Assembly (NCBI RefSeq): GCF_038019025.1
Contig: NZ_CP150496.1
Location: forward strand, 1,628,001-1,692,000
Direction: 5' to 3'
Length of the DNA stretch: 64,000 nt
Source: Polaribacter marinaquae
GTDB lineage: Bacteria; Bacteroidota; Bacteroidia; Flavobacteriales; Flavobacteriaceae
Numbering within the stretch: the first letter of the stretch is position 1; every line of letters starts with the position of its first letter. Made by a program: the position numbers and the translations under genes. A model generated the notes under the pieces. It saw only the letters and a list, made by a program, of their open reading frames with translations. It searched no databases and was not told the DNA's origin. Positions 9,058 through 13,731 of the stretch are shown one piece after another.

Positions 9058-10140
9058 CTATCCTTTAATAATTTTTTCTTGATGATTGATAGATTCTTGA
9101 TGAATTGCTTTAAACATTTTTAAAACAAACTCTTCACTTAATCCTTTACTTTCACCTTCTAAAATCATGTTTCCTAAGATTTCGTTCCATCGTTTCGATT
9201 GTAAAACTGCAACGTTTTTATCTTTCTTTAAAGCACCAATTTGATCTGCAATTTTCATTCGTTTTCCTAAAGTTTCTACCAACTGGTTATCTACCACGTT
9301 AATTTGCGCTCTTAGGTTATCTAAACTGCTTTTGTATTCTGCTTCTGTGTTTGTTTCTTTTCTAATTTTTAGATCTTCCATGATTTGCTTTAACTTCGTT
9401 GGTGTAACTTGTTGTGCAGCATCTGACCATGCGTTATCTGGATCGAAATGTGTTTCTATCATTAAACCATCGAAGTTTAAATCTAAGGCAGTTTGAGAAA
9501 CATCAAAAATCATTTCTCTGTTACCTGTAATATGAGATGGGTCGCAAATTAATGGTAAATCTGGAAATTTATTTTGAAACTCGATAGCAATTTGCCATTC
9601 TGGAACATTTCTATATTTTGTTTTTTCGTATGTAGAAAAACCTCTATGAATTGCTCCTAAATTTTTAATATCTGCTGTATACAAACGCTCGATACCACCT
9701 AACCATAAAGCCAAATCTGGGTTTATTGGGTTTTTTACTAAAACAATTTTATCTGTACCGTGTAAGGCATCTGCAATTTCTTGCATAATAAATGGTGATA
9801 CAGCTGTTCTTGCACCAATCCAAAGTAAATCTACATCATGTTCTATGGCTAATTTACAGTGCGCTGCATTGGCAACTTCTGTACAGGTTTTCATGCCTGT
9901 TTGTTCTTTTACTTTTTTAAGCCAACCTAAACCTAATGCACCAACACCTTCAAAATTTCCTGGTCTTGTTCTAGGTTTCCAAATTCCTGCTCTATAATAG
10001 TTTACATCAGAATCTTTTAATTCGTGTGCGATTTTTAAAACCTGTTCTTCGGTTTCTGCACTACAAGGCCCTGCTATTACTAGTGGATGATCTAGTTTCA
10101 TATCATCCAACCATGTTCTTAATTCTTTTGTATTCTTCAT
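9058..10140 (-). CDS. Bifunctional DAHP synthase / chorismate mutase
   Basis: A 360-residue fusion. Residues 1 to about 265 are a type I-beta-like 3-deoxy-D-arabino-heptulosonate-7-phosphate synthase: AGPCSAETEEQ near 19-29, WKPRTRPGNFEG, GARTAVSPF and CDPSHITGN. Residues about 270-358 form an AroQ-class chorismate mutase (LRAQINVVDNQLVETLGKRM, then VLQSKRWNEI). It catalyses the first shikimate step and chorismate to prephenate. This fusion is known in Bacteroidota, where the mutase domain carries feedback control. It is the last gene of the attenuated pheA operon, 20 bases after tyrA, so both ends of the Phe/Tyr pathway are co-expressed. Confidence 0.94.
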   Translation of the reverse strand: MKNTKELRTWLDDMKLDHPLVIAGPCSAETEEQVLKIAHELKDSDVNYYRAGIWKPRTRPGNFEGVGALGLGWLKKVKEQTGMKTCTEVANAAHCKLAIEHDVDLLWIGARTAVSPFIMQEIADALHGTDKIVLVKNPINPDLALWLGGIERLYTADIKNLGAIHRGFSTYEKTKYRNVPEWQIAIEFQNKFPDLPLICDPSHITGNREMIFDVSQTALDLNFDGLMIETHFDPDNAWSDAAQQVTPTKLKQIMEDLKIRKETNTEAEYKSSLDNLRAQINVVDNQLVETLGKRMKIADQIGALKKDKNVAVLQSKRWNEILGNMILEGESKGLSEEFVLKMFKAIHQESINHQEKIIKG

Positions 10141-10160: not shown

Positions 10161-11012
10161 TTATTTTATGCCGTTTAAAATTTGTTTTATATAATTTGTA
10201 TTCTCCATTTCGTTAAAAATTTCAGAGAAATTATCTTGTTGCATCAATTCTTTAAATTTTTGTAAATTATTGATGTATTCTTCTAACGTTTCTATTACGT
10301 TTTCTTTGTTTTGTTTAAAAATTGGTGTCCACATTGCTGGCGAACTTTTTGCCAAACGCACTGTTGATGCAAAACCAGAACCTGCCATATCAAAAATATC
10401 GCGCTCGTTTTTTTCTTTATTTATTACTGTTTTACCTAACATAAATGCGCTAATGTGAGATAAGTGCGAAACATACGCAATATGCTTGTCATGCGAAACA
10501 GGATCCATGTAACGAATACGCATTCCAATAGCTCTAAAAAGGTCTAATGCTTTTTCTTGCAATTTAAAAGTTGTTTTTTCTACCTCGCAAATAATGTTCG
10601 TTTTCCCTTTGTATAAGCCAGAAATTGCTGCTGATGGCCCTGAATTTTCTGTTCCTGCAATTGGGTGTGCTGCTAAAAAATTTCTTCTTTTTGGATGATG
10701 TTCAACCACTTTACAAATTGCTTCTTTTGTTGAGCCTGCATCTACAACCAACGTATTATCAGAAATTTTATCTAAAATTATTGGTAATAATTTTACAGTT
10801 GCATCTACCGGAATCGACACAATTACCAAATCGGCATTTTCTAAATTATCTAAAGTTGCTTTTTCTTCTATTACACCTAATTTTAGAGCTTCGTCTAAAT
10901 GGTTTTCATTGGCATCAATTCCGTAAATTTTAACTTCTGGATTGTTATTTTTTATATCGACAGCAAAACTACCGCCAATTAAACCAATACCAATCATGTA
11001 TATATTTTTCAT
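10161..11012 (-). CDS. tyrA: Prephenate dehydrogenase
   Basis: A 283-residue TyrA-type enzyme. The NAD(P)-binding Rossmann loop IGIGLIGGSFA is at 7-17, followed by VSIPVDAT, VDAGSTKEAI and the substrate-binding AAHPIAGTENSGPSAA. It oxidatively decarboxylates prephenate to 4-hydroxyphenylpyruvate for tyrosine. No ACT domain is present; the protein ends after the helical dimerisation domain, so control likely rests on attenuation and on the fused DAHP synthase. Spacing is three bases to the aminotransferase and 20 to the DAHP synthase gene. Confidence 0.95.
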   Translation of the reverse strand: MKNIYMIGIGLIGGSFAVDIKNNNPEVKIYGIDANENHLDEALKLGVIEEKATLDNLENADLVIVSIPVDATVKLLPIILDKISDNTLVVDAGSTKEAICKVVEHHPKRRNFLAAHPIAGTENSGPSAAISGLYKGKTNIICEVEKTTFKLQEKALDLFRAIGMRIRYMDPVSHDKHIAYVSHLSHISAFMLGKTVINKEKNERDIFDMAGSGFASTVRLAKSSPAMWTPIFKQNKENVIETLEEYINNLQKFKELMQQDNFSEIFNEMENTNYIKQILNGIK

Positions 11013-11015
11013 AAT

Positions 11016-12158
11016 CTATAATCTTGATATTGCTTCTTTAATTATATCTGTTGTTACACACAATGAAAAACGAATATATCCTTCTCCTTGCGAACCGAAA
11101 ATGGTTCCTGGTGTTATAAAAATATCTTTATCGTATAAAACTGCATCTGTAACTTCTTCAGATTTTTTTCCTTCGGGTATTTTTGCCCAAACAAATAAGC
11201 CTGTTGCATTTTTATTATAAGTAGCATCTAATTTATCTGCTAATTGCCAAATTAGATTTCTGCGTTCTTCATAAATTTTATTTTGATCAGAAAACCAACT
11301 ATCAGATAATTGTAAAGCTTCTATTGCTCCTTTTTGAATTCCGTAAAACATACCAGAATCCATGTTCGATTTTACTTTTAAAACTTCGTCGATATATGTT
11401 GCATTTCCTAACAACATTCCAACTCGCCAACCAGCCATATTAAAAGTTTTACTTAAAGAATTCAATTCTAAAGCAATTTCTTTTGCGCCATCAACTTGTA
11501 AAATACTAATAGGATTATCATTTAAAATAAAACTATACGGATTATCATTTACAATTAAAATATTATGCTTTTTACCAAATGCTACTAATTTTTGAAAAGT
11601 TATTAATGTTGCATCTGTACCTGTTGGCATATGCGGATAATTTACCCACATAATTTTTACATTAGATAAATCTAGATTTTCTAATGTTTCAAAATCTGGT
11701 TGCCAATTAGTTGCATCACTTAAATTGTAAAACAATGGTTCTGCACCCACCAATTTTGTTACAGATGTATACGTTGGATAACCAGGATTCGGAATTAAAA
11801 CTTTATCGCCTTCGTTTAAAAAAGCCATAGAAATATGCATAATCCCTTCTTTACTTCCCATTAAAGGCAAAATTTCATTTTCTGGATTTGCATCTACAGA
11901 AAACTTGCTTTTATAAAAACTTGAAATTGCATTTCTTAATTCTGGTAAACCTTGGTAAGATTGATATTTATGTGCACTCGAATCACCCAAACTATTAGAA
12001 ATTGCGTCTAATACTTTTGTTGGCGGTTGTAAATCCGGAGAACCAATTCCCATATTAATAATTGGTTTTCCTGCAGCAGCTAAACCTCTAACTTCTCTTA
12101 ATTTTTTAGAGAAATAATATTCTTGTACTGTATCTAATCTTTTGGCAGCTTTAATCAT
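11016..12158 (-). CDS. PLP-dependent aminotransferase, probably aromatic
   Basis: A 380-residue fold-type I aminotransferase. The PLP-binding lysine is K237 in SLSKTFNMAGWRVGM, with NDNPYSF at 204-210 and the carboxylate-binding NYPHMPTG at 173-180. It overlaps pheA by four bases (ATGA) and is three bases from tyrA. Being between the phenylpyruvate-forming and hydroxyphenylpyruvate-forming enzymes, it most likely transaminates those keto acids to Phe and Tyr. By sequence alone aspartate or LL-diaminopimelate-type aminotransferase activity cannot be excluded. Confidence 0.9.
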   Translation of the reverse strand: MIKAAKRLDTVQEYYFSKKLREVRGLAAAGKPIINMGIGSPDLQPPTKVLDAISNSLGDSSAHKYQSYQGLPELRNAISSFYKSKFSVDANPENEILPLMGSKEGIMHISMAFLNEGDKVLIPNPGYPTYTSVTKLVGAEPLFYNLSDATNWQPDFETLENLDLSNVKIMWVNYPHMPTGTDATLITFQKLVAFGKKHNILIVNDNPYSFILNDNPISILQVDGAKEIALELNSLSKTFNMAGWRVGMLLGNATYIDEVLKVKSNMDSGMFYGIQKGAIEALQLSDSWFSDQNKIYEERRNLIWQLADKLDATYNKNATGLFVWAKIPEGKKSEEVTDAVLYDKDIFITPGTIFGSQGEGYIRFSLCVTTDIIKEAISRL

Positions 12159-12979
12159 TTTCTCCCATTTTTATACGTTCCTAATATCTTAAATTCTTCT
12201 GCCATTATTTCTATAATAGCTTTTGCTTTTTCGTAATCTTTGTAAGCATCAAAAGTAACATCAACAAAAAATGAATATTTCCAAGGAGATTCTATAACCG
12301 GTAAAGATTGAATTTTAGTTAAATTCATTTTACAATCGCTTAACACATTTAATATTGCCGCTAAACTTCCTCTTTTATGATCTAATTGAAATTTTAAAGA
12401 TGCCTTATTAACTTTTTCGTTTATTTCTGGCGCTGTTGTTTGTACAATTACAAATCTTGTTGCATTATCTTTTATTGTTTGAATTTCATCTTCTATTACC
12501 TCTAAATTAAAAATTTCTGCAGCAATTTTTGGAGCAATAGCTGCAATACCCACTAAATTTTCTTTAGAAATTCTTTTTGCTACTTCTGCAGTATCTACAT
12601 CTTCTACTAATTTTATCTGCGGATATTTTTTAAAGAACTCCTTACATTGTAATAACGCCATCGGATGCGACCAAACCTCTTTGATGTCTTCTATTTTCTG
12701 ACCTTCTAAAGCCATTAAATGGTGGTGAATATTTAGATATTCTTCACCGGTAATATGTAAATTATTTTTATCAATTAATGCATAATTTGGTATAATAGAA
12801 CCTGCAATTGTATTTTCGATAGCCATAACACCAAGGCTTGCTGTTGCATCTAATAAGTTATCTACCAAAGTATCAAAAGACATGCATTCTATTAAATCTA
12901 TAGATGCACCATAAAAGTCTCTTGCAACTTTATGATGATTTGAACCTTCGGCTCCTTGTATGGCGATTACTTTTTTCAT
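12155..12979 (-). CDS. pheA: Prephenate dehydratase
   Basis: A 274-residue monofunctional PheA. The N-terminal two-lobed catalytic domain begins VIAIQGAEGSNHHKVA; the catalytic TRF motif lies in NATRFVIV. A C-terminal ACT domain (about 190-270) carries ESPWKYSFFVDV, the phenylalanine-sensing segment, so allosteric inhibition by Phe is expected. It converts prephenate to phenylpyruvate. It is the first structural gene behind the Phe/Tyr attenuator. Its ATG follows the attenuator T tract by only 12 bases. Confidence 0.96.
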   Translation of the reverse strand: MKKVIAIQGAEGSNHHKVARDFYGASIDLIECMSFDTLVDNLLDATASLGVMAIENTIAGSIIPNYALIDKNNLHITGEEYLNIHHHLMALEGQKIEDIKEVWSHPMALLQCKEFFKKYPQIKLVEDVDTAEVAKRISKENLVGIAAIAPKIAAEIFNLEVIEDEIQTIKDNATRFVIVQTTAPEINEKVNKASLKFQLDHKRGSLAAILNVLSDCKMNLTKIQSLPVIESPWKYSFFVDVTFDAYKDYEKAKAIIEIMAEEFKILGTYKNGRK

Positions 12980-12990
12980 GAATTGATATC

Positions 12991-13023
12991 AAAAAAAAAG
13001 TCTCGAATTAAATTCGAGACTTT
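12991..13023 (-). terminator. Attenuator terminator hairpin in the pheA leader
   Basis: On the minus strand AAAGTCTCGAAT pairs perfectly with ATTCGAGACTTT around a three-base loop (13023-12997), followed by nine T (to 12991). This strong intrinsic terminator lies between the leader peptide and pheA, where it would prevent expression of the operon unless disrupted. Its 5' arm AAAGTCTC can alternatively pair with GAGACTTT at 13064-13057 inside the leader coding region, forming the antiterminator. Confidence 0.88.
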
Positions 13024-13041
13024 ATATATTTTTTATTCTGT

Positions 13042-13122
13042 TTAATAACATGATACAAAGTCTCTCCTCTTACTAAAAAAGTAAAAGTAAAAATAGAAAC
13101 GTGCCCAAGTGTTATTTAACAT
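13042..13122 (-). CDS. Phe/Tyr-rich leader peptide of the aromatic attenuator
   Basis: A 26-codon ORF (ATG at 13122, TAA at 13044-13042). Codon 6 is Trp, and codons 9-16 are F Y F Y F Y F F without interruption (TTC TAT TTT TAC TTT TAC TTT TTT). It starts about 25 bases downstream of a good promoter and ends 19 bases before the terminator stem. Low charged tRNA-Phe or tRNA-Tyr should stall the ribosome in this run, leaving GAGACTTT (codons 20-22) free to pair with the terminator's 5' arm. CTTTTAC in codons 12-14 can also pair with GTAAGAG downstream, a possible hairpin that masks the antiterminator when no ribosome is present. Such leaders are known for amino acid operons; this one was found by reading the sequence. 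Confidence 0.87.
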   Translation of the reverse strand: MLNNTWARFYFYFYFFSKRRDFVSCY

Positions 13123-13145
13123 ATTGATTCTCTTTATTAATGTGA

Positions 13146-13175
13146 CAAATCTAAAGATTATATTGAGACAAACAA
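13146..13175 (-). promoter_or_regulatory. Promoter of the pheA leader operon
   Basis: On the minus strand TTG (13175-13173), 19 bases, then TAGATTTG (13153-13146), a full match to the Bacteroidota consensus TTG-N17/20-TAnnTTTG. Transcription would start a few bases further on, giving a short 5' end before the leader ATG at 13122. Confidence 0.65.
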
Positions 13176-13396
13176 ATTATATCGCATTTTTTATAAAAGA
13201 ATTGACAATTTGGTAAAATATACTTAATAAAAAGTACTGGTTTTATGAATTTCTTTAATAATTAATCAATGTATCGTAAAGTTAATATCTTAATATATTA
13301 TTATCCTATTAAGATATAGGATATCAAGCCATTAAAATGAGATTACTGTATTGCAATTTCTTTATACAAGATTTATTTTTATCAGAAAAATAATAG
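13176..13396. other. AT-rich spacer between divergent promoters
   Basis: Between the pheA promoter and the rpsO promoter I see no ORF, RNA or repeat. There is only an imperfect AT-rich inverted repeat around 13290-13322 (TATCTTAATA and TATTAAGATA). Confidence 0.4.
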
Positions 13397-13429
13397 TATA
13401 TTTGCACCTTCAATGAAAAAATTTCGTTG
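13397..13429 (+). promoter_or_regulatory. rpsO promoter -7 box and leader hairpin
   Basis: TATATTTG (13397-13404) fits TAnnTTTG; no clear TTG lies at the -33 distance. Just downstream CAATGAAA and TTTCGTTG (13411-13429) form an 8-bp stem with a three-base loop, including one G-U pair, at the start of the S15 leader. Ribosomal protein S15 binds its own leader in other bacteria with differing structures; whether this hairpin does so is conjecture. Confidence 0.45.
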
Positions 13430-13461
13430 ATATACATAATAATCATTTAAATAATATTGGC

Positions 13462-13731
13462 ATGTACTTAACTAAAGAAGTTAAAGAAAGCATTTTCGAA
13501 AAACACGGTAAAGGAAAAAACGATACTGGTTCTTCAGAAGGGCAAATCGCGTTATTTACGCACAGAATTAACCATTTAACAGAGCATTTAAAAAGAAATC
13601 GTAAAGATTTTAATACAGAGCGTTCATTAGTAATGATGGTAGGTAAACGTAGAAGTTTATTAGATTATCTAAAGAAAACTGAAATCAACAGATATCGTGC
13701 GATTATCAAAGAATTAGGAATTAGAAAATAA
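13462..13731 (+). CDS. rpsO: 30S ribosomal protein S15
   Basis: 89 residues, the standard length. Characteristic segments are GSSEGQIALFTHRINHLTEHLKRN and RRSLLDYLKK at the end. S15 binds the central domain of 16S rRNA early in assembly. As in many bacteria it is followed by pnp, but with a terminator and a structured leader between, so the two are probably only partly co-transcribed. Confidence 0.98.
   Translation: MYLTKEVKESIFEKHGKGKNDTGSSEGQIALFTHRINHLTEHLKRNRKDFNTERSLVMMVGKRRSLLDYLKKTEINRYRAIIKELGIRK

Follow-up and report, generated by a model that had tools for sequence, protein, structure and literature searches.

How does Polaribacter marinaquae control an operon that serves the biosynthesis of both phenylalanine and tyrosine, and what part is played by the short aromatic-rich open reading frame that precedes it? 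We examined these questions in a window of 64,000 nucleotides (the whole stretch of DNA analyzed, positions 1,628,001 to 1,692,000 of contig NZ_CP150496.1) from a genome of one contig of 3.17 Mb; the closest named relative by PheA, among the matches listed, is Polaribacter sp. BM10, with 99% identity. A preliminary description of the sequence had proposed ribosome-mediated attenuation upstream of a pheA-aminotransferase-tyrA-DAHPS/CM operon. The operon was confirmed by matches to Pfam and NCBIfam domains (Table 1), and comparative evidence supports the proposed mechanism, which is the classical one: the sequences compared make it very probable that the leader controls the synthesis of Phe and Tyr as a ribosome-mediated transcription attenuator of the trp/phe/his type.

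The anatomy of the leader was largely as first described. Read on the minus strand, it encodes the peptide MLNNTWARFYFYFYFFSKRRDFVSCY, and the 26-codon frame in which codons 9 to 16 are all Phe or Tyr was borne out; the two residues were said to alternate strictly, but the alternation breaks at the last residue of the run. The promoter placed upstream of the leader is present and is of the Bacteroidota type, its TAGATTTG element beginning 31 nt upstream of the leader ATG. Also located on the minus strand as claimed were the antiterminator arm GAGACTTT and a 12-bp terminator with nine T residues; the terminator reads AAAGTCTCGAAT-TTA-ATTCGAGACTTT (13023-12997), and the nine T residues lie at 12999-12991, three of them within the stem. 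By sequence, an intrinsic terminator stands between the leader and the first gene, and the short leader ORF carries a run of codons for the product of the operon. An Rfam identity for the leader was considered and rejected, the only match in the window at gathering level being an S15 leader. That element is the S15-Flavobacteria ribosomal protein leader (RF03161, 76.4 bits), a known family, which lies at 13397-13464 on the plus strand and is divergent from the pheA leader.

Table 1. Features of the pheA leader and the operon downstream, in window coordinates
Feature	Coordinates	Strand	Evidence or remark
Promoter, Bacteroidota sigma-A type	13146..13176	-	TTTG at 13176-13173 and TAGATTTG at 13153-13146
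Leader ORF, 26 codons plus TAA	13042..13122	-	ATG at 13122, stop ends at 13042; conserved in relatives
Control codons 9-16, F Y F Y F Y F F	13075..13098	-	198/199 leaders combine Phe and Tyr in their best 8-codon window
Region 1, protector hairpin 5' arm, over codons 8-13	13086..13100	-	RNA fold; synonymous-codon permutation test
Protector (1:2) hairpin 3' arm, overlapping the antiterminator arm	13060..13074	-	RNA fold
Region 2, antiterminator arm GAGACTTT (13064-13057), extended to GAGACTTTGTAT	13053..13064	-	Sequence; compensated changes between genera
Region 3, terminator 5' arm AAAGTCTCGAAT; with the preceding ATAT also pairs with region 2	13012..13027	-	
Region 4, ATTCGAGACTTT with the T-tract; completes the terminator	12991..13008	-	
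pheA, prephenate dehydratase	12155..12979	-	Pfam PF00800, 1.5e-53
Class I/II aminotransferase	11016..12158	-	Pfam PF00155, 3.1e-60
tyrA, prephenate dehydrogenase	10161..11012	-	NCBIfam NF006307, 394.4 bits (cut-off 295); PF02153, PF20463
DAHP synthase/chorismate mutase fusion	9058..10140	-	PF00793 and PF01817

Conservation, the check to which the leader ORF had been held from the outset, was found in all 81 of the closest sequences, more widely in the family and in many further families of its class. The near set comprised the window and the best 80 loci from a scan of named genomes, most of them named Polaribacter or Tenacibaculum, and the assignment of these 80 closest named loci to the family of the window is our own; every one of the 81 sequences, the window included, has at least six aromatic residues in eight leader codons and a terminator before pheA. 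Five more sequences from the genus of the window were added and 4 of the resulting 86 were identical to others, giving 82 distinct leaders. A wider sample of 152 further pheA upstream regions was drawn from the order, phylum and class (92, 40 and 20 fetched from 203, 258 and 72 genomes with a PheA match, respectively); these loci were picked from the listed places for family spread, so that the counts are not rates for the phylum, and two rows appear to be repeated (L083 is apparently L019, and L260 is apparently L059). A script that accepted leaders with at least five aromatic residues in eight codons, followed by a terminator, recognized a Phe/Tyr-rich leader and terminator in 199 of the 233 sampled upstream regions; when only the last 330 nt were considered, the combination was present in 197 of 233, compared to none of 699 dinucleotide shuffles. 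A leader and hairpin below the threshold of the script are visible by eye at L186, L187, L196, L204 and L250, so that the 34 upstream regions negative by script become 29 after reading by eye, and L157, with a hairpin 114 nt away, fails the final leader-plus-terminator test. Positive loci include the 81 nearest sequences, all 67 sampled members of family f1 (labels are those of the search tool) and members of f2, f3, f9, f13, f15, f17 to f19, f22 (3 of 7), f23, f25 and others. The script found no leader with a terminator in any of the seven sampled members of f5, four of which have a PheA match of only about 1e-26, in any of the four of f16 (three genomes of 0.6 Mb and one of 1.3 Mb) or in either of the two of f75; further negatives are single members of families. 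Of 190 upstream regions, 117 carry the element TANNTTTG within the 110 nt before the leader ATG, compared to 9.8% of shuffles, and 73 lack it; in 91 of the 117 the nearest copy starts 21 to 40 nt before the ATG.

A covariance model built from the 82 near leaders, with L059 in the training alignment, was run on 100 genomes of the family, each from a different genus, and matched 76 of them at an E value of 0.001, a count that may include a few false matches because the weaker ones are partly noise. Fifteen of the 18 strongest matches outside the genome of the window were fetched; all 15 have a Phe/Tyr leader and an adjoining pheA, and the aminotransferase gene comes next in 14. One of them, L260, appears to be the training sequence L059, so that 14 are new. 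Of the five weaker matches fetched, L275 is a genuine pheA leader; the other four are ordinary terminators that lack both a Phe/Tyr leader and pheA, and they were rejected as noise. The codon run by itself was rejected as evidence, since such runs are not rare in the genome: a seven-codon Phe/Tyr pattern gave 38 overlapping matches in the genome of the window, compared to 26 for the reversed pattern. By script, no terminator was found at any of the 16 other sites of this pattern that were fetched, from 20 places.

The segment that follows the Phe/Tyr codons changes together with the terminator arm between genera, the arm reading AAAGTCTC, AAGTCCCG, AATCCT, AATCCCG, AAATCCCGCT, GACCGCT and others. 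In 72 representatives, one per genus and three of them taken from the close set, the mean duplex energy of region 2 with the terminator arm was -12.8 kcal/mol for a leader's own arm and -8.3 kcal/mol for swapped arms, and none of 10000 permutations gave an energy as low as that of the own pairing. The own region 2 ranked first of 72 for its arm in 10 leaders and among the best 5% in 22, with a worst rank of 42; top ranks are rare because many genera share similar arms. Watson-Crick helices of at least 6 bp with the arm were formed by region 2 in 43 of the 72 leaders, by the Phe/Tyr codon run in 9 of 72 and by windows preceding the leader in 5 of 286, and region 2 made only 3 to 4 bp with its arm in 15 of the 72. 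Helices of at least 5 bp comprised 43 distinct sequences, and in the 57 leaders that have one, the helix starts at a median of 10 nt past the last Phe/Tyr codon, which in a model with an assumed 12-nt 3' edge is just beyond a ribosome stalled on the last control codon. In these tests region 2 behaves as an antiterminator arm: its pairing with the terminator 5' arm and the terminator itself would exclude each other, and it would lie outside a ribosome stalled on the control codons. The stop codon is found 6 to 45 nt past the last Phe/Tyr codon, so that regions 2 and 3 retain their pairing whether or not it falls within the reading frame; even behind the stop codon the arm is preserved, as with GAGACTTT in L008.

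The compensatory changes anticipated in the preliminary description were thus encountered between genera, where the arms change together, but there is little covariation among the 82 closest leaders, whose arms are nearly invariant. Paired cells in these leaders amount to 97% for the terminator, 91% for the antiterminator and 86% for the protector hairpin. Double changes affected 0 of 12 pairs between regions 3 and 4, 2 of 12 between regions 2 and 3 and 1 of 17 between regions 1 and 2, none exceeding the shuffled means, and such counts are of little use in near relatives because the arms hardly vary. One pair among near relatives does covary, in L085 and L086, where A-U became G-C (GAGGCTTT with AAAGCCTC); in L035 and L054 the arm changed and its partner did not.

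A 7-bp hairpin that had been proposed to sequester GAGACTTT did not survive inspection, as its arm GTAAGAG (13073-13067) has no overlap with GAGACTTT. Part of GAGACTTT is hidden by another fold, in which TTTTTACT pairs with AGTAAGAG and GTTTCT with AGAGAC; here codons 8 to 13 (13100-13086) pair with 13074-13060 and cover GAGAC. This protector hairpin is seen in the RNA fold and in a permutation test of synonymous Phe/Tyr codons, and in the 82 close leaders it displays no covariation above that of shuffles. The native local fold was more stable than the permuted ones (z < 0) in 53 of 69 usable leaders (Wilcoxon p 7e-7), with 32 z scores below -1 and 4 above 1 among leaders that are related and not fully independent. 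Since native codons give the more stable fold, the Phe/Tyr codons appear to be under selection for structure as well as for the amino acids that they specify.

The attenuator of E. coli pheA has mutually exclusive antiterminator and terminator structures. For the leader in the window, we suggest that RNA polymerase would start at the TTTG/TAGATTTG promoter and that a ribosome would translate the leader behind it. With ample Phe and Tyr, the ribosome would reach the stop codon and cover region 2, and once it had gone, the protector hairpin would hide this region; with region 2 covered or hidden, regions 3 and 4 would form the terminator and the operon would be off. A shortage of charged tRNA-Phe (or tRNA-Tyr) would stall the ribosome on one of codons 9 to 16, where it would block region 1. 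Region 2 would then pair with region 3 while region 4 is still to be transcribed, forming an antiterminator that would allow the polymerase to continue into pheA. The comparisons establish conservation, co-varying arms, spacing and codon choice; that transcripts terminate and ribosomes stall in vivo, and how the leader reacts to Phe and to Tyr, we infer.

By rule of thumb, the 3' edge of a ribosome lies 12 nt from the A-site codon. When this distance was assumed in fold models, a stall at codon 9, 12 or 16 allowed regions 2 and 3 to pair ahead of the synthesis of region 4, and a ribosome at codon 20, at codon 24 or at the stop codon prevented that pairing. At equilibrium, a ribosome at codon 9 or 16 did not keep the full RNA from folding into the terminator; of the stalls modelled, only that at codon 12 gave the antiterminator, and ribosome-free RNA extending to region 3 formed the antiterminator beside a smaller hairpin. 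From these equilibrium folds we infer that the on and off states would both rely on the order of folding during transcription.

Which amino acid is sensed is the point at which the attenuator reading faces its strongest rival. The leader probably senses Phe, and, judging by its codons, we lean towards a response to Tyr as well. It is possible, if in our view the lesser prospect, that the attenuator senses Phe only, the Tyr codons being tolerated or kept for the hairpin, as in aroR of Corynebacterium glutamicum, whose Phe-Tyr-Phe leader peptide reportedly answers to Phe and not to Tyr (PMC11802643). The excess of Phe over Tyr codons (1065 versus 679 in 199 leaders) is in keeping with such an arrangement; against it, 198 of these 199 leaders, related and so not independent, have at least two Tyr and at least two Phe codons, the operon includes tyrA, and in the window Tyr codons 10, 12 and 14 lie inside the run.

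Two other explanations would dispense with stalling altogether, and we regard both as improbable. A constitutive terminator might be followed by a second promoter, with the leader ORF incidental. Sigma-70-like matches are abundant in this AT-rich DNA (8 kb contain 32, a number that shuffles also reach), and at L094 the terminator is far from pheA; in the window, however, the pheA start lies only 17 nt beyond the terminator stem, and an ORF that arose by chance would not preserve its Phe/Tyr codons, their spacing, the pairing of the antiterminator and a bias among synonymous codons, which makes this account very unlikely. Still harder to credit is a leader that binds a metabolite or protein (a riboswitch, a T-box or a protein-bound terminator) and involves no stalling of ribosomes: alternative hairpins would be expected there too, but what is conserved is coding sequence, a run of Phe/Tyr codons, and no Rfam family reaches its gathering score at the leader, the best being Phe_leader with 24.5 bits compared to a cut-off of 55 (20.5 bits on the other strand).

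Ribosome-mediated attenuation, the reading that we prefer, has well-studied counterparts elsewhere. In E. coli, pheA is likewise preceded by a leader peptide (pheL, RF01859) and subject to control by charged tRNA-Phe, as outlined in the accessible text of PMC11802643; the leader in the window is, by its score, not a member of the same RNA family, its Phe and Tyr codons alternate, and its operon adds genes for the aminotransferase, TyrA and DAHPS/chorismate mutase. C. glutamicum aroR, upstream of aroF, also combines a Phe-Tyr-Phe leader peptide with ribosome stalling, according to the same text, but belongs to an actinobacterium and a DAHP synthase operon and reportedly responds to Phe only, whereas here there are eight consecutive control codons. 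Naville and Gautheret, in the portion of their 2010 paper available, stated that leader-peptide systems had, to their knowledge, not been shown beyond the Proteobacteria and Actinobacteria, and added the Firmicutes. ORFs reminiscent of leader peptides were subsequently mentioned for Bacteroides thetaiotaomicron (PMC7366714, 2020). Guérin and coworkers (2021; PMC9723704) described structured 5' elements before pheA and hisG in Flavobacterium psychrophilum that are conserved in other Flavobacteriaceae and have no Rfam hits, and they reported strong clues to leader-peptide attenuation before amino-acid operons; their pheA element is probably the same as the leader in the window, and the accessible description gives neither the sequence nor the codons or pairing of that element, nor how far it extends outside the family. 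The earlier assessment that such leaders are little described in Flavobacteriia is therefore fair, except that this pheA element had already been flagged. Our literature search, conducted mostly without subscription journals, turned up no account of a dual Phe/Tyr leader from the Bacteroidota. New here are the dual Phe/Tyr anatomy, its spread over the class Bacteroidia, the comparative tests and the tandem copies.

Tandem aromatic leaders, each with its own terminator, occupy the last 420 nt before pheA in L199 and L200 (f23), L192 (f19) and L172 (f13), those of L172 having Phe without Tyr. The Salmonella mgtCBR operon also has two leader ORFs, as set out in the accessible text of PMC3641672, but the genes are different and in the four loci described here each leader ORF has a terminator of its own. 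Elsewhere in the genome of the window, hisG is preceded by a leader-like ORF that contains four His codons, MNFIQSHHHHFYNCNQAI, and by a terminator (L234, minus strand, 2212-2092), and ilvD by an Ile/Val-rich ORF, MMKSFLNIISITSVIVIIAV, with a terminator (L235, 1156 to about 1281); both were identified by eye and are probable His and branched-chain attenuators, respectively. A search of this genome for a pattern of five His codons yielded four sites, none of them a leader with a terminator; the hisG leader came to light on inspection of the region upstream of that gene. Phe/Tyr leaders also precede pheA in three genomes of other classes (L205, L206 and L207), in which PheA is 42 to 44% identical to that of the window, compared to 31 to 36% for other listed members of those families; either the operon was transferred with its leader or the assemblies are contaminated.

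The principle of attenuation is textbook knowledge, but its distribution is much wider than we found described. We are evenly divided on whether an early ancestor of the Bacteroidia already had a dual Phe/Tyr-sensing attenuator that remains the main control of the pheA operon, having been rewritten base by base with its logic kept, multiplied into tandem copies by some lineages and passed on together with the operon to other classes. If this were true, it would constitute an unlisted RNA family and would point to tight coupling of transcription and translation in a phylum where initiation mostly does without Shine-Dalgarno sequences. F. psychrophilum is reported to be without such sequences, and the leader implies that ribosome and polymerase are coupled in cells of this kind. 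An attenuator that is conserved and yet rewritten over much of the Bacteroidia suggests that the mechanism is probably central there too, and the pheA leader offers a natural reporter for such coupling and for the capacity of one leader to report two amino acids.
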